Positions 934 to 6,801 of a stretch of DNA of 39,814 nucleotides are shown piece after piece (position 1 is the first letter of the stretch; each line of letters begins with the position of its first letter). The stretch lies in assembly GCA_903951425.1 (NCBI GenBank), contig CAJBBX010000172.1:1-39814 (forward strand), read 5' to 3'. Made by a program: the position numbers and the translations under genes. The notes beneath the pieces were generated by a model. The model searched no databases, was not told where the DNA came from, and worked only from the letters and a program-made list of their open reading frames with translations. This stretch comes from an uncultured Chthonomonas sp. (GTDB taxonomy: Bacteria > Armatimonadota > Chthonomonadetes > Chthonomonadales > CAJBBX01).

Positions 934-2619
934 ATGAACCAGTTGCGTCTGTTTCAGCTGCCACTTCTGCCTCTCACCCCGCCGGGGGTAGCGGCTGGCG
1001 CGGTCTTCACGAGGCCTTGGGTCGTGAGTCTCATCCTTGACCTCGTCGGCTACACGGTAGATCAGGACCTCGCGGGTAAGCTGATCATTGAGCCGTCGGC
1101 GGGGCATGGTGCGTTCCTCGGCGAGATCGTGAGGCGGCTCTTGGCGTCCTGCGCCCGCCGCGGCCTGGACGTGACGGTGGCGGCCAACGCCATCCTTGCC
1201 TGTGAGCTTGACGCCCGATCAGCGGCATCGGCGCGGAGCTTGGCCACTGGGCTAGTGGCAGCATCAGGATCGTCTCAGACCGACGCTCTGGAGTTAGGCG
1301 CCGCATGGGTGAAGACGTGTGACTACCTTCTGGAGTGCGACCCGCCAGCTCCGGCTGACTTCGTGGTTGGCAACCCGCCGTATATCCGGCTCGAAGACAT
1401 GGAGGAGCGGGCGGCGCGCTACAGGTCGGAGTACCCGACCATGGTGGGCCGGGCTGACATCTATGTGGCCTTCCTCGAAGCGGGCCTGCGGCAGCTCGCT
1501 CCCGGCGGCAAACTGGGCTTCATCTGCGCAGACCGCTGGATGCGCAATCAGTACGGTGCAGGCATCCGTCGCTTCGTGACGTCGGGATTCGCAGTGAACG
1601 CCATCGTGGAGATGCACAACGCCGTTGCCTTTGATGACGATGTCAGCGCCTACCCTGCGGTAGTCAGCTTGGAGCGAAGCGCCCAAGGCCCCGCAGTTGT
1701 GGCATGGGCTCAGGCAGGCGTTGAGGTCACAGGCGGGGCGCGCATTGCGCGGCATCTGCAAGCGGTGCGCGAGCATACGTCCGTCCCGCCCTTGGAGGGC
1801 ATCAGCGCTGCCCGTATTGACCAGTGGTTCACGGGTGACGACCCTTGGCCGTTAGTGGAACCGCAAAGGCTGGCCCTGCTCAGGCGGTTGGAACGGGCAT
1901 TCCCTAGCATCGAAGCGTCCGGAGCGGTGGTCGGCATCGGCGTCGCCACCGGTGCGGACGGCGTCTTTGTTACCAAGGACACCCAGGCGGTTGAGGCAGA
2001 CCGCTTGCTGCCCCTGGCCATGGCCAAAGACGCCCGAGGGGATGCGTTCGCTTGGTCGGGCCACTACCTCGTCAACCCTTGGGCTGACCACGGTCTGGCC
2101 GATCTGAATGCGTTTCCGCGGCTCCGCGCCTACTTCGAGCGGCATGCATGTGTGTTACGCGCCCGACACGTGGCGAGGAAGGGCGGCGGCTGGTTTCGCA
2201 CTATAGACCGTGTGGATACCCGACTAACCTCGCGGTCCAAGCTCTACCTGCCAGATTTCGCCGCTAGATCGTCGCCCATGTTGGATCCAGGTGGAACCTA
2301 TCCCCACCACAATGTCTACTTTATCTGCTCCGACGTGTGGGACTTGCAGGTCCTCGGCGGATTGCTGCTCTCGGATATAGCGCAGATGTACCTCGAGGCG
2401 TTCTGCGTCCGCATGCGTGGCGGCTATCTTCGTTTCCAGGCGCAGTACCTGCGGCGGCTCCGCGTGCCAAGGCCTGAGGCCCTCTCCGAGGCCCTGCGTG
2501 GCTCGCTGCGTGAGGCGTTCGTCAAGCGTGATACACGGCTAGCTACCCAGGTTGCGTTCGAGGCCTACGGCCTATCAGAGGAGGACCGCCATGCCGTCGG
2601 ATCTGTCTGCACGCTTTGA
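934..2619 (+). CDS. N6-adenine DNA methyltransferase of a type II R-M system (Eco57I-like fold)
   Basis: This protein of about 561 residues is predicted to methylate adenine N6 in DNA, protecting host sites from the nuclease encoded next. An S-adenosylmethionine-binding motif I is visible as EPSAGHGAFL (residues 53-62). The catalytic motif IV is GNPPYIR (NPPY at 147-150). This motif order (I before NPPY) fits the gamma/Eco57I-like class. Residues after about 350 would hold the target-recognition part. The start at 934 is chosen because GAGGTGATC (922-930), complementary to the 16S rRNA tail, sits just upstream; the frame is open to 793 without a comparable site. The 3' end overlaps the restriction gene by 29 bases, so the two are translated together. 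The sequence partner implies CTCGAG specificity; that is inferred from the nuclease, not from the methylase. Confidence 0.9.
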   Translation: MNQLRLFQLPLLPLTPPGVAAGAVFTRPWVVSLILDLVGYTVDQDLAGKLIIEPSAGHGAFLGEIVRRLLASCARRGLDVTVAANAILACELDARSAASARSLATGLVAASGSSQTDALELGAAWVKTCDYLLECDPPAPADFVVGNPPYIRLEDMEERAARYRSEYPTMVGRADIYVAFLEAGLRQLAPGGKLGFICADRWMRNQYGAGIRRFVTSGFAVNAIVEMHNAVAFDDDVSAYPAVVSLERSAQGPAVVAWAQAGVEVTGGARIARHLQAVREHTSVPPLEGISAARIDQWFTGDDPWPLVEPQRLALLRRLERAFPSIEASGAVVGIGVATGADGVFVTKDTQAVEADRLLPLAMAKDARGDAFAWSGHYLVNPWADHGLADLNAFPRLRAYFERHACVLRARHVARKGGGWFRTIDRVDTRLTSRSKLYLPDFAARSSPMLDPGGTYPHHNVYFICSDVWDLQVLGGLLLSDIAQMYLEAFCVRMRGGYLRFQAQYLRRLRVPRPEALSEALRGSLREAFVKRDTRLATQVAFEAYGLSEEDRHAVGSVCTL

Positions 2620-3328
2620 GGCTGCCGTCCAGAGCTTCTGGGCGACCCGCGATGCGCAATCGGACAAGCAGGCAGCCGGCGGCAAGCCCGATGCAGGCTC
2701 CAGAGGCTCCGTGACCGCCGGCGAGCACATGAATGGACTTGTGCACCTGGTAGTAGATATCCTCAAAGGCGCGGGCATCGAGGACTGCTGCATCCAGACA
2801 AAGGCCCATCTCGCGTTGCCCGGCTACTTCCGACCAGAAAAGAAGTGGGATCTGATCGTCGTCAAACACACGCAGTTGCTCTTCGCCATCGAGTTAAAAA
2901 GTCAGGTTGGTAGTGTCGCCAAAAACCTCAACAACCGGGCCGAGGAGGCAATTGGTAGCGCTGTGGACCTCTGGACCGCGTACCGCGAGGGACGCTTTGG
3001 CCAAGGGGCGCCGGCACCCTTCCTTGGCTATTTCTTCCTGCTTGAGGACTGCGAAGAGGTCCACAAACCGGTGAAGAGTATGGAGCCACACTTCGCAGTC
3101 GATCGCGTCTTCAAGGGCGCGAGCTACAGCCAGCGGTATGAGTGCCTGTGTCGTCGCCTAGTGCTGGAGCGGAAGTATAGCGCTGCGTGCCTTACACTCG
3201 CCACGAACGGCACACCCGCCCGCATCTCACACCCGTGCGAGGACCTTTCGTTTGGGCGATTCGTCGCTGAACTTCGCGGTGCGGCGGCCCGGTTTGCCGA
3301 AATCGGTAACCCGAGTACACCAGCCTAA
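2591..3328 (+). CDS. PaeR7I/XhoI-type restriction endonuclease
   Basis: The product has 245 residues, close to the length of PaeR7I, and the central region matches that family by eye. GYFRPEKKWDLIVV is followed by LLFAIELKSQVGSVAKNLNN, then the long AEEAIGSAVDLWTAYREG and PFLGYFFLLED blocks. The PD-(D/E)xK active site is D87 with E101-L-K103. Known members (PaeR7I, XhoI) cut CTCGAG, so that specificity is the prediction. The start at 2591 is supported by AGAGGAGG (2577-2584) six bases upstream, which lies inside the end of the methylase gene. The methylase-first order and the overlap fit a system where protection should appear before cutting. No control (C) gene was seen. Confidence 0.88.
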   Translation: MPSDLSARFEAAVQSFWATRDAQSDKQAAGGKPDAGSRGSVTAGEHMNGLVHLVVDILKGAGIEDCCIQTKAHLALPGYFRPEKKWDLIVVKHTQLLFAIELKSQVGSVAKNLNNRAEEAIGSAVDLWTAYREGRFGQGAPAPFLGYFFLLEDCEEVHKPVKSMEPHFAVDRVFKGASYSQRYECLCRRLVLERKYSAACLTLATNGTPARISHPCEDLSFGRFVAELRGAAARFAEIGNPSTPA

Positions 3329-3638: not shown

Positions 3639-3802
3639 CTCAGCGACCTCCGTAGGTATCGGCTTTCGGTCAAGGCATGGAGGTTAGCGAGCCCATGCCC
3701 TCTCGCCACATTACCCTACTATGCCGGCGACCCCGGAAACGGAAGGCGCCCCCGGTGAATCTCTGCGGAATGCGCGGGAGGCCCACGGCGCCGGGCAAGC
3801 CA

Positions 3803-3845
3803 CCCCGTCGAGGGAGTCGGGGTCCTTCACTTCGTTCAGGACGAC
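3803..3845 (-). repeat. Dispersed short repeat, copy A
   Basis: Read on the minus strand this begins GTCGTCCTGAACGAAGTGAA. Thirty-two of its first 40 bases match copy B at 39770-39809. A third, shorter copy lies at 39429-39447. The family shape CCTGAxCxAxGxGAAGGxCC is found in intergenic DNA only in this window. Confidence 0.75.
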
Positions 3846-3867
3846 GTCAACGGCGCCGTGTCCCCCG

Positions 3868-3895
3868 CCACTCCCTACTCGCCACTCGCTACTCC
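3868..3895. repeat. 7-nt tandem repeat (CYACTCS)4
   Basis: Four consecutive 7-nt units: CCACTCC, CTACTCG, CCACTCG, CTACTCC. It lies between the dispersed repeat and the iron-block promoter. Confidence 0.75.
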
Positions 3896-3943
3896 TTGGA
3901 ACACCAGGCCGCCCTCTGCCCGAAGGACCCCCTGTGCCTGGTG

Positions 3944-3960
3944 CTGCGAACAAGTCGCAA
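3944..3960. promoter_or_regulatory. Candidate Fur-family operator O1
   Basis: CTGCGAACAAGTCGCAA matches 13 of 17 positions of the perfect palindrome at 4510-4526 and keeps the right arm AGTCGCAA intact. It abuts the -35 box of the promoter at 3961, where a bound repressor would block RNA polymerase. Confidence 0.5.
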
Positions 3961-3990
3961 TTGACCTGGCGGGTCGCGCTGGGGTAGACT
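3961..3990 (+). promoter_or_regulatory. Sigma70-type promoter of the Fur-family gene
   Basis: TTGACC (3961-3966) and TAGACT (3985-3990) are separated by 18 bases, giving a predicted transcription start near 3997. It is bracketed by operator copies at 3944-3960 and 4002-4018, which points to autoregulation of the gene starting at 4033. Confidence 0.6.
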
Positions 3991-4001
3991 ACCGGTTGTG
4001 A

Positions 4002-4018
4002 ATGCAACTGAGTCGCAA
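4002..4018. promoter_or_regulatory. Candidate Fur-family operator O2
   Basis: ATGCAACTGAGTCGCAA matches 15 of 17 positions of the perfect palindrome upstream of feoB. It lies just after the predicted transcription start and before the start codon at 4033, a typical repressor position. Confidence 0.65.
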
Positions 4019-4032
4019 CTGAGAGTGCAGCC

Positions 4033-4482
4033 ATGGCCTTAGCCGCCCGGGGATCGCTGGCCGAGGCGCTTAGCCTTCGCGGCATCCGGCTGACGCGCCA
4101 GCGGCGCCTCCTGCTGGAGGTGCTTGACAACGCCCCCGGCCACCTCAACGCTCGGGAGCTCCTCCAGGCCGCGCGTCGCACCGATCCCACCATCGACCGC
4201 GCCACCGTCTACCGCACCCTCCACCTGCTGAAGACCAGCGGCCTCGTCGACGAACTGGACCTCCTCCACCTGGAGGGCGAGGAGCACTACTACGAGCGCC
4301 GCCGCACCGGCGACCATGTACACCTCGGTTGCCCCCAATGCGGAACCATCAGCGAGTTCGAAACGGACCTTGTCTTGAAGCTCGCGCAGGAAGTGGCCCG
4401 GCGCGAGGGCTTCACGGCCACGGGTATCCGCATCGAGGTCCGCGGCATCTGCAAGGCGTGCAGCGAGGCACAGGTTCGATGA
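4033..4482 (+). CDS. fur: Fur-family metal-responsive transcriptional repressor
   Basis: The product is a 149-residue cytoplasmic DNA-binding protein. The N-terminal winged helix is visible as RGIRLTRQRRLLLEVL, then the recognition-helix region IDRATVYRTLHLLKTSGLV (about 54-72). The C-terminal dimerisation domain has GDHVHLGCPQCG (C100, C103) and ICKACSE (C140, C143), the two CxxC pairs that hold the structural zinc in Fur, Zur and PerR. Sequence alone does not tell which metal is sensed. The downstream feoB, sharing the same operator, argues for ferrous iron. Tandem operators around its own promoter indicate autoregulation. No strong ribosome site precedes the ATG. The gene is followed after 61 bases by feoB, with another operator in the gap. 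Confidence 0.9.
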   Translation: MALAARGSLAEALSLRGIRLTRQRRLLLEVLDNAPGHLNARELLQAARRTDPTIDRATVYRTLHLLKTSGLVDELDLLHLEGEEHYYERRRTGDHVHLGCPQCGTISEFETDLVLKLAQEVARREGFTATGIRIEVRGICKACSEAQVR

Positions 4483-4509
4483 GCATGGGGCGTTACCTTG
4501 TGCTTGGAT

Positions 4510-4526
4510 TTGCGACTGAGTCGCAA
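4510..4526. promoter_or_regulatory. Perfect 17-bp palindromic operator upstream of feoB (O3)
   Basis: TTGCGACT-G-AGTCGCAA is a perfect inverted repeat with a single central base. The inner TGCGACT-G-AGTCGCA has the 7-1-7 architecture of Fur boxes, although the bases differ from the E. coli consensus. It lies 17 bases before the feoB start, and near-copies flank the fur promoter, so the Fur-family protein is the natural candidate ligand. Confidence 0.75.
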
Positions 4527-4543
4527 CGGGAGGGCGGTCGACC

Positions 4544-6607
4544 ATGACGGTGACGCGAACTCAGGAGGCGCAGGCGCCTGGCCGCGACTTCCTGGCACGG
4601 GCCGGCGGCTGGGTTGCGAACACCCTCCGCTCGGCCGGCCGCACCGGCATCCGCGACGAGAAGGAGGCCGATCCCGGCGGCCGCAAGCGCGTCCTCATCG
4701 TCGGTAGCCCCAACGTGGGCAAGAGCGTCCTCTTCAACCGCCTGACGGGCCGCTACGTCGTCGTCTCCAACTACCCAGGCACCACGGTCGAGGTCTCCCG
4801 TAGCCGCATGACGCTGGACGGCGAGGAGGTCGACGTCGTCGATACGCCGGGCATGTACTCCCTCCGGCCCATCTCCGACGAGGAGCGCGTGGGCCGGCGG
4901 CTGCTCCTGAACGAGCCCGCCGACGTGGTCCTGCACGTCGTCGACGCCAAGAACCTGACCCGGATGCTCCCCTTCACGCTGCAGCTCATCGAGTGTGGAC
5001 TACCCGTAGCGCTCGTGGTGAACATGCTCGACGAAGCGGAGCGGCTGGGCATCACCGTTGACCTGAAGCGCCTGCGGGACGCGCTGGGCATCCCGGTGGC
5101 GGGCATCTCGGCCCTGCGCAATGCAGGGATGGACCAGGTGCGCGCCCTCATCCGCGCGCCTCGGTCCACGCCCACGCAGGCGGCGCCGGTGACCTATGAC
5201 GACGCCGTTGAGGCCGCTGTGGGCGCGGTGGCCGGCGCGCTTCCCGGGGGAGACCCCATCGCGCCGCGAGGCCTGGCGCTGCTCCTGCTGCAGGACGACC
5301 CTGAGCTGGCGCAGAGCCGCGCCACCGACGGCGGCGCCGGGCGCGCGCTGGCGGCGGGCCGCGATGCGCTGGGCGATGGCGTGGAGACCACGGTGGCGCT
5401 GCGCCGCCACGCCGCGGCCAGGGAGCTGGCGGAGTCCGCCATGCACCTCGCGGGATCGGGCAAGGTGGGCCTCGCCGAGCGCCTCAGCAGGCTCTGCACG
5501 TCGCCGGTGACCGGCGTGCCCGTGCTGGCGCTGGTGGTCTGGTTCGGGCTGTACCAGTTCGTCGGCGTCTTCGGCGGCGGGACGCTGGTGGGTCTGCTGG
5601 AGAAGAGCCTCTTCCAAGGGGTCATCAATCCGTGGGTCGAGGCGCACGTCCGCCAGTGGGTGCCCTGGCCATGGCTGGCGAGCCTCTTCGTGGGCGACTA
5701 CGGGATCTGGACGCTGGGCGTGACGTACGCCGTCGCGCTGGTCTTCCCCATCGTCGGCACCTTCTTCCTGGCCTTCTCCGTGCTGGAGGATAGCGGCTAC
5801 CTGCCCCGGCTGGCCATGCTGGTGGACCGGCTCTTCAAGTCCATCGGCATGAGCGGCAAGGCCGTGATCCCCATCGTGCTGGGCTTTGGGTGCGACACCA
5901 TGGCCACGCTAGTGACGCGCATCCTGGAGACGCGGCGGGAGAGGGTCATCGCTACGTTCCTGCTCTCGCTGGCGATCCCCTGCTCCGCGCAACTGGGCGT
6001 GATGACGGCCCTGCTGGCGGGCCACTCGCTGGCGTTCGGGCTCTGGACCGGCATCATGGTCGGCATCTTCATGCTGGTGGGTTACCTATCGGCGCGGCTC
6101 ATGCCCGGCGAGGCGGCCCAGTTCGCCATCGAACTGCCTCCGCTCCGCCTTCCGAGCCCGGCCAACGTGGCCATCAAGACCCTCTCGCGGATGCACTGGT
6201 ACTTCCTCGAGGTGCTGCCCCTGTTCGTCATCGCCAGCGTCGGCATCTGGCTGGCGCAGATGGCGGGCCTATTCGACCTGGTGATCCGGGGCTTGCATCC
6301 GGTGGTCCACCTGCTCGGCCTGCCGCCGGCTTCCGCCGAGGCCTTCCTGTTCGGCTTCTTCCGCCGCGACTACGGCGCTGCGGGCCTCTACCGCCTGCAC
6401 CAGTCCGGCGGTCTCGACGGGCGGCAGCTACTGGTGAGCGTGGTGGCGCTGACCATCTTCCTGCCCTGCGTCGCCCAGTTCCTGATGGTCAAGAAGGAGC
6501 GGGGGGCGCGCGCCGCGCTGGGGATGTCGGCCTTCATCTTCCCCTTCGCCGTGGGCGTCGGAGCGCTGCTGAACTGGGTGCTGACGACCCTGAGGATCGC
6601 GCTATGA
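4544..6607 (+). CDS. feoB: FeoB ferrous iron transporter
   Basis: This inner-membrane ferrous iron transporter of 687 residues has an N-terminal GTPase domain. G-motifs: G1 GSPNVGKS (54-61), G2 within VVVSNYPGTTVEV, G3 DTPGMYS, G4 NMLD, G5 SALRNAG. A roughly 150-residue linker leads to the Gate/nucleoside-recognition membrane domain. Membrane segments include GVTYAVALVFPIVGTFFLAF and the conserved VIPIVLGFGCDTMATLVTR; the last helix is near FIFPFAVGVGALLNWVL. About 48 residues precede G1, an unusual amphipathic/basic extension (DFLARAGGWVANTLRSAGRTG). The start at 4544 follows GGGAGG (4528-4533). FeoA is missing from the neighbourhood. The stop overlaps the ATG of the next small gene (ATGA). 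Confidence 0.95.
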   Translation: MTVTRTQEAQAPGRDFLARAGGWVANTLRSAGRTGIRDEKEADPGGRKRVLIVGSPNVGKSVLFNRLTGRYVVVSNYPGTTVEVSRSRMTLDGEEVDVVDTPGMYSLRPISDEERVGRRLLLNEPADVVLHVVDAKNLTRMLPFTLQLIECGLPVALVVNMLDEAERLGITVDLKRLRDALGIPVAGISALRNAGMDQVRALIRAPRSTPTQAAPVTYDDAVEAAVGAVAGALPGGDPIAPRGLALLLLQDDPELAQSRATDGGAGRALAAGRDALGDGVETTVALRRHAAARELAESAMHLAGSGKVGLAERLSRLCTSPVTGVPVLALVVWFGLYQFVGVFGGGTLVGLLEKSLFQGVINPWVEAHVRQWVPWPWLASLFVGDYGIWTLGVTYAVALVFPIVGTFFLAFSVLEDSGYLPRLAMLVDRLFKSIGMSGKAVIPIVLGFGCDTMATLVTRILETRRERVIATFLLSLAIPCSAQLGVMTALLAGHSLAFGLWTGIMVGIFMLVGYLSARLMPGEAAQFAIELPPLRLPSPANVAIKTLSRMHWYFLEVLPLFVIASVGIWLAQMAGLFDLVIRGLHPVVHLLGLPPASAEAFLFGFFRRDYGAAGLYRLHQSGGLDGRQLLVSVVALTIFLPCVAQFLMVKKERGARAALGMSAFIFPFAVGVGALLNWVLTTLRIAL

Positions 6608-6801
6608 CACCCGTGATGACCACCTGCGCCTTCTGCGGCCATCCCTTCACGGAGGAGGAGGGCGCCACCTCCTGCGGGGCCTGCGCCGCGTTCGGCGGAT
6701 GCCGCAAGGTGAAGTGCCCCGGCTGCGGCTACGAGACGCCCCAGACCTCGCCGCTGGTGCGGTGGCTCATGGCGCTCAAGGCGGGACGGAAGGCGGCGTA
6801 G
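6604..6801 (+). CDS. Small Cys-rich (zinc-ribbon-like) protein coupled to FeoB
   Basis: The 65-residue protein starts at the ATG that overlaps the feoB stop codon (ATGA), so it is translationally coupled to the transporter. It has seven cysteines in three CxxC pairs, CAFC (8-11), CGAC (24-27) and CPGC (38-41), plus C33. The short basic tail WLMALKAGRKAA has no membrane segment. The pattern could bind zinc or an Fe-S cluster. By position it resembles the small accessory proteins found after feoB in other phyla (FeoC or FeoB-associated Cys-rich proteins), but it is not recognisably homologous to them. A role as an iron- or redox-sensing partner of FeoB is inference. Confidence 0.75.
   Translation: MTPVMTTCAFCGHPFTEEEGATSCGACAAFGGCRKVKCPGCGYETPQTSPLVRWLMALKAGRKAA

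Follow-up and report, generated by a model that had tools for sequence, protein, structure and literature searches.

The Fur protein of Magnetospirillum gryphiswaldense MSR-1 (MgFur; PDB 4rb2, 4rb3) offers the closest described counterpart to the regulator and operators considered here. Its footprinted feoAB1 operator contains TCGCAACTCATTCGCAA, and Tyr56 and Arg57 read operator bases (PMC4506495). Regulatory metal site 1 of MgFur is formed by H33, E81, H88, H90, and E101, and Mn2+ fills this site too; a second metal site comprises H87, D89, E108, Q111, and H125, and MgFur lacking it bound DNA in vitro but lost repression in vivo (PMC4506495). A review gives the 7-1-7 inverted repeat as an accepted Fur-box unit, with a single Fur dimer using one such unit on the feoAB1 operator (PMC11353095). 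Within the same family, Nur of Streptomyces coelicolor is a nickel regulator of sodF and nikABCDE with a published box of tTGCaa-N5-ttGCAA. Our Fur-family comparisons follow four papers (PMC4506495, PMC3919588, PMC11353095, PMC7055735). A literature search, covering titles and the beginnings of abstracts, returned no report on Fur control in Armatimonadota.

The window, by which we mean the whole 39,814-nt stretch of DNA that was analyzed, comes from an Armatimonadota genome and forms contig C172 of its 6.08-Mb assembly (G000 in our comparisons). It carries a fur–feoB locus with three related 17-bp sites, which, read from the sequence, very probably let Fur switch off both fur and feoB in a conserved, autoregulated circuit. 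The parts of the locus are these:

3944-3960, unstranded: operator 1, CTGCGAACAAGTCGCAA, abutting the −35 element of the fur promoter and matching operator 3 at 13/17 positions
3961-3990, + strand: predicted fur promoter, TTGACC - 18 nt - TAGACT, with the −35 element at 3961-3966 and the −10 element at 3985-3990
4002-4018, unstranded: operator 2, ATGCAACTGAGTCGCAA, a 15/17 match directly 3′ of the predicted transcription start
4033-4482, + strand: fur, Fur-family metalloregulator of 149 aa (PF01475, E 1e-27)
4510-4526, unstranded: operator 3, TTGCGACTGAGTCGCAA, a perfect 8-1-8 palindrome inside the 61-bp fur–feoB gap
4528-4534, + strand: likely feoB ribosome-binding site, GGGAGGG, directly 3′ of operator 3 (sequence reading)
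4544-6607, + strand: feoB, ferrous iron transporter of 687 aa (TIGR00437, 418 bits; cut-off 315.65)
6604-6801, + strand: Cys-rich ORF of 65 aa whose start overlaps the feoB stop (ATGA)

The TTGACC-18-TAGACT promoter was the only sigma-70-like match within 3800-4600, where shuffled sequences average 0.1, and the same scan predicted no promoter belonging to feoB. A gap of 11 nt separates the −10 element from operator 2. The arrangement is as the first-pass annotation had described it, with copies matching at 13/17 and 15/17 flanking the promoter, one against the −35 element and the other after the transcription start; its broader proposal, that a Fur-family regulator has dedicated operators at both fur and feoB, is likewise supported. 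Downstream, the 65-aa Cys-rich ORF, which Pfam and NCBIfam searches at E 0.001 left unmatched, may be part of the feoB operon, and its product is perhaps a small protein that assists the iron transporter. Just 5′ of the locus, an Eco57I/N6-type DNA methylase (793-2619) and an XhoI-family restriction endonuclease (2552-3328) make up a restriction-modification pair.

We consider it likely that the locus forms an autoregulated repressor circuit in which Fe2+-loaded Fur dimers on the three operators repress fur and feoB. One dimer, with Fe2+ at a conserved 3-His/2-Glu site, would bind each 17-bp operator, each operator being read as one 7-1-7 box whose outer bases also match. With operators 1 and 2 on either side of the fur promoter, bound Fur would block RNA polymerase at the −35 element and at the transcription start. 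Operator 3, placed in the fur–feoB gap against the feoB ribosome-binding site, would repress or road-block feoB. At low iron, Fur would leave the DNA and FeoB would import ferrous iron. Mechanistically, the circuit is ordinary, and the locus is a clear case of it.

The recurrence of the operator in the window and its conservation in relatives both exceed chance. With up to 3 mismatches allowed, the window holds four strand-matches to the pattern, all at operators 2 and 3, against 0.11 expected; operator 1 has 4 mismatches to the exact pattern and so falls outside this count. In an alignment of three congeners, 46/51 site columns are identical, compared with 51/87 flanking columns, the latter counted outside the −35 and −10 hexamers. 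Operator 2 is identical throughout (17/17 columns), operator 1 at 14/17, and operator 3 at 15/17, with its changes at site positions 8 and 9. The fur promoter itself is identical at 5/6 columns of the −35 element and 6/6 of the −10 element.

Beyond the genus, the operator accompanies a single Fur subfamily. Among 31 genomes of the order, 22 contain a Fur-family match (E <= 0.001); in G000 there is a single PF01475 match. Orthologues of the window Fur, at 42-95% identity, are encoded in G001, G002, G006, G007 (two copies), G008, G010, and G012. A search of 251 genomes with an orthologue profile added G141 and G157, members of two more families, with E values under 1e-60, after which the next matches fall to 1e-51. 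The operator TTGCRACNNNGTYGCAA precedes fur in all 11 loci of this subfamily, spanning four family-level groups, and an additional operator precedes another gene at the locus in 10 of them. G006 is the exception, as its second operator is unlinked and precedes a methyltransferase gene elsewhere in the genome. Sites stand both before and after fur in G141 and G157, whose families lay outside both matrices used to scan the subfamily loci. A matrix built from the window genus only recovered operators in 7/8 subfamily Fur loci of other genera (10 matches versus 0.125 expected), missing those of G012. The motif thus recurs upstream of fur and feoB in relatives, where its absence would have told against the first-pass annotation.

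The association with the subfamily is close but not absolute, since weaker sites precede Furs just outside it: the 33 Fur loci beyond the subfamily gave three weaker matches (0.35 expected), all of them before such near neighbors of the clade. These weaker operators lie at L183 1366, L184 2003 (~60 bp before the start), and L176 1956; none was seen in the relatives L181 and L182. In a tree of 42 Furs, from which L056 and L063 were left out, the 11 site-bearing proteins are separated from all others by a branch of moderate support (84/82). On this tree the site trait requires one change, compared with a mean of 9.9 after shuffling, and 0/500 shuffles gave a value as low. Four Fur-family matches without a locus (in G006, G007, and G011) were outside both scan and tree. 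A control set of 60 loci at feoB-model or NRAMP-model matches of the order took in GTPase matches scoring under the feoB cut-off but none of the fur-linked transporters of G007, G008, G010, and G012. In this set, the three feoB loci of the window genus that are linked to fur were the only ones with strong sites, and one weak site lay elsewhere (14.3 bits).

The genes next to fur vary within the subfamily. feoB adjoins fur in G000, G001, and G002; in G007 it lies 5′ of fur and has its own pair of operators, spaced 265 bp apart, which a ferritin-like gene precedes. In G157 the neighbor is feoA (PF04023), followed by what its translation suggests is a transposase-like gene, and in G141 it encodes a protein containing a CPMCP...KCPKCGM segment. 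A methyltransferase gene lies 3′ of the second Fur of G007. A SAM-methyltransferase-like protein (L100 1750-2637; L026/L219) has the operator 5′ of its gene both beside this second Fur and at the unlinked site in G006, and its relative in G012 has no operator. In G008, G010, and G012, fur is adjoined by an NRAMP-family transporter gene (PF01566). The operator-controlled proteins of this family (L101 759-1955; L040, reverse strand; L037 2122-3321) carry ADVDAAS at the place of DPGN, the classical NRAMP motif, and may for this reason constitute a distinct transporter subfamily.

Because the controlled transporter of G008, G010, and G012 is NRAMP-like, iron is not certain as the signal. The same circuit could instead sense manganese or several divalent metals in the manner of Mur, the subfamily repressing an adjacent divalent-metal importer, although we judge this unlikely. 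It draws on these three NRAMP-like neighbors, on the occupancy of the same MgFur site by Mn2+ (PMC4506495), and on the Mur structures 5fd5 and 5fd6, which are among the closer matches in both sequence and fold, but the partner is feoB or feoA in G000, G001, G002, G007, and G157. Moreover, both NRAMP genes of G000 lie away from fur: the sole site of one, at 2 mismatches, overlaps the stop codon of the gene, and the second has no site at 14 bits or more.

An iron-responsive Fur is the reading that we prefer. The window Fur scored 97.1 bits against PF01475 (cut-off 23.1). Its predicted model (pLDDT 86) has a winged-helix plus dimerization fold that matches PerR, Fur, and Mur structures, with TMt values of 0.79-0.85 against six chains of DNA-bound MgFur. 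Within the family, the assignment as Fur rests on residues and context, since all nine NCBIfam models listed, Zur and PerR included, fell below cut-off (the best, NF051892, at 77 bits versus 220) and the best single structure match by E-value was PerR, by both sequence and fold. Sequence matches to structures were PerR at 87.9 bits, Zur at 86.5, and C. jejuni Fur at 86.0, the last of these serving to map the MgFur residues onto the window protein. All 11 subfamily proteins keep the five-residue iron site (H37, E88, H95, H97, and E108), and all 11 likewise conserve the residues that correspond to MgFur Tyr56 and Arg57. In the residue alignment, Asp takes the place of both iron-site Glu residues in PerR, and Zur of M. 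tuberculosis has Phe and Arg at the positions of H37 and E88. The second MgFur metal site is not kept, its positions being D94, V96, L115, A118, and I132 in the window Fur; across the 11 proteins, positions 94, 115, and 118 vary (Glu at 115 in 4/11), and 96 and 132 are hydrophobic. Its absence weakens the Fur assignment without excluding it, because MgFur lacking the second site still bound DNA in vitro but lost repression in vivo.

The fit of the subfamily sites to TTGCRA-N5-TYGCAA, and so to the published Nur box, might suggest a Nur-type nickel regulator acting on a Nur box, which we regard as highly improbable. Nur (3eyy, 83.2 bits) is no closer to the window protein than PerR, Zur, or Fur, and its residues at the metal positions differ. 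The Nur histidines that we take to bind nickel correspond to E74 and R133 in 11/11 subfamily proteins, and Nur has His where all 11 keep Glu at iron-site position 88. The neighboring genes include iron genes, with no nickel gene recognized among them.

That the sites are chance palindromes, or serve an unrelated regulator, is barely credible and was rejected: one perfect 8-1-8 palindrome is expected in such a window (3 seen versus 2.2 expected from 20 shuffles), but the repetition of the sites, their conservation above the flanks, and the way they accompany a single Fur clade across four family-level groups all argue against it. The perfect palindrome first noted before feoB is indeed present at 4510-4526, but it is 8-1-8 rather than 7-1-7, and with the count at chance level, a single perfect palindrome is insufficient as evidence.

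The first-pass annotation had also proposed that the motif could be used to find the whole iron regulon, which the scans do not support. In G000, two sites match with up to 1 mismatch, both at the fur–feoB locus (mirrored control, 0). Allowing 2 mismatches raises the count to 19, including three at the locus (mirrored controls, 25), and a stricter motif at up to 3 mismatches gave five, again with three at the locus (control, 4). A background in coding sequence, which would also have told against the first-pass annotation, exists for loose matches but not for close ones in this genome. At up to 1 mismatch, ten genomes bearing the subfamily gave 31 matches (control, 9), 20 at fur loci and 11 elsewhere, and ten genomes without it gave 25 (control, 16). 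The exact motif occurs in 11 of 251 genomes across the phylum, at subfamily fur loci in five and elsewhere in six, and its mirrored control in seven genomes. Because matches outside fur loci stay near control counts, we take the operator to mark a local circuit; it is possible that divergent sites fall below the sensitivity of the scan.

Individual matches yielded no convincing wider regulon. All 17 loose matches outside the locus in G000 were inspected (16 with up to 2 mismatches plus one from the stricter-motif scan), and 14 lie inside longer mechanical open frames. In the ten genomes bearing the subfamily, the same holds for 9 of the 11 non-fur matches at up to 1 mismatch; mechanical frames overlap the other two as well, yet recognizable proteins stand 3′ of them. 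One loose match in G000 overlaps the stop codon of an NRAMP gene, with 2 mismatches and an opposite-strand mechanical frame also covering it, and another lies between two response-regulator-like genes. A third, identical in three congeners, sits ~280 bp 5′ of a gene that we take from its translation to encode a pyruvate:ferredoxin-oxidoreductase-like protein, and was discounted because the surrounding stretch is conserved throughout. This intergenic stretch (L082 900-1300; L204 and L205 in congeners) has 90% mean column identity over three species and includes an invariant hairpin-like segment, possibly a regulatory RNA or terminator. Of the two matches before recognizable proteins, one precedes the methyltransferase gene of G006 and gives a target in trans in a relative. 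The other, a 1-mismatch operator in G002 (L031 1501-1517; G002:C82), lies ~180 bp 5′ of the gene for a hybrid-cluster protein; G000 and G001 lack it. Loose counts in G004 (e.g., C29, C37, C43, C53) are inflated by an unrelated repeat, TTGCGAGGGAGGCGCAA: most of the listed members of its 45 matches are copies of this sequence or its complement, in short arrays spaced 32-37 bp, several at contig starts.

The partners found under the operator (feoB, feoA, an NRAMP-like transporter, a methyltransferase, and a metal-binding-domain protein) also allow a more speculative view, which we put forward tentatively. The subfamily Fur and its operator might constitute an almost private cassette in which the operator stays fixed upstream of fur and of its neighbor while the adjoining gene is exchanged, with hardly any targets elsewhere and with the sensed metal possibly changing along with the partner. 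If so, a "global" iron regulator would have been reduced to a one-operon local switch. The scans also counsel caution, in that a Fur box at fur and feoB need not open a genome-wide regulon.

Compared with known systems, the window operators belong to an established type. Like them, the MgFur feoAB1 operator is a single 7-1-7 box before a feo gene, and its sequence TCGCAACTCATTCGCAA agrees with the window motif TTGCRACTNAGTYGCAA at 14/16 defined positions. On a 24-site matrix it scores 15.3, a value reached by 0/40,002 composition shuffles, although lower than the weakest training site (18.8). The two proteins share iron-site ligands, the base-reading Tyr and Arg, and a similar fold at ~30% identity, whereas in the window Fur an Arg aligns with MgFur Lys15 and the second metal site is lacking. 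The DNA also differs, in that the window has three separate operators serving fur and feoB, with G-C rather than A-T near the center. S. coelicolor Nur, another Fur-family member, has the half-site TTGC(A/G)A and the 5-bp spacer in common with the window sites. The Fur box of E. coli and B. subtilis shares the 7-1-7 inverted-repeat layout (PMC11353095) but is AT-rich and of the GATAAT type; the E. coli box scores −36 on the motif, bearing out the earlier remark that the window sites are unlike that consensus. The labels "non-canonical" and "lineage-specific" do not stand, the first because 7-1-7 is an accepted unit and the second because of the MgFur and Nur agreement. Since the MgFur operator, the 7-1-7 unit, and the Nur half-site and spacing all agree, we regard the motif as a Fur-family operator of an already known type, here in a new host. 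Armatimonadota thereby gain a testable operator for iron control, and the TGC(A/G)A...T(C/T)GCA operator, described previously in the structure of an alphaproteobacterial Fur, is extended to a distant lineage, which suggests that there are several Fur codes, the GATAAT-type box being just one of them.
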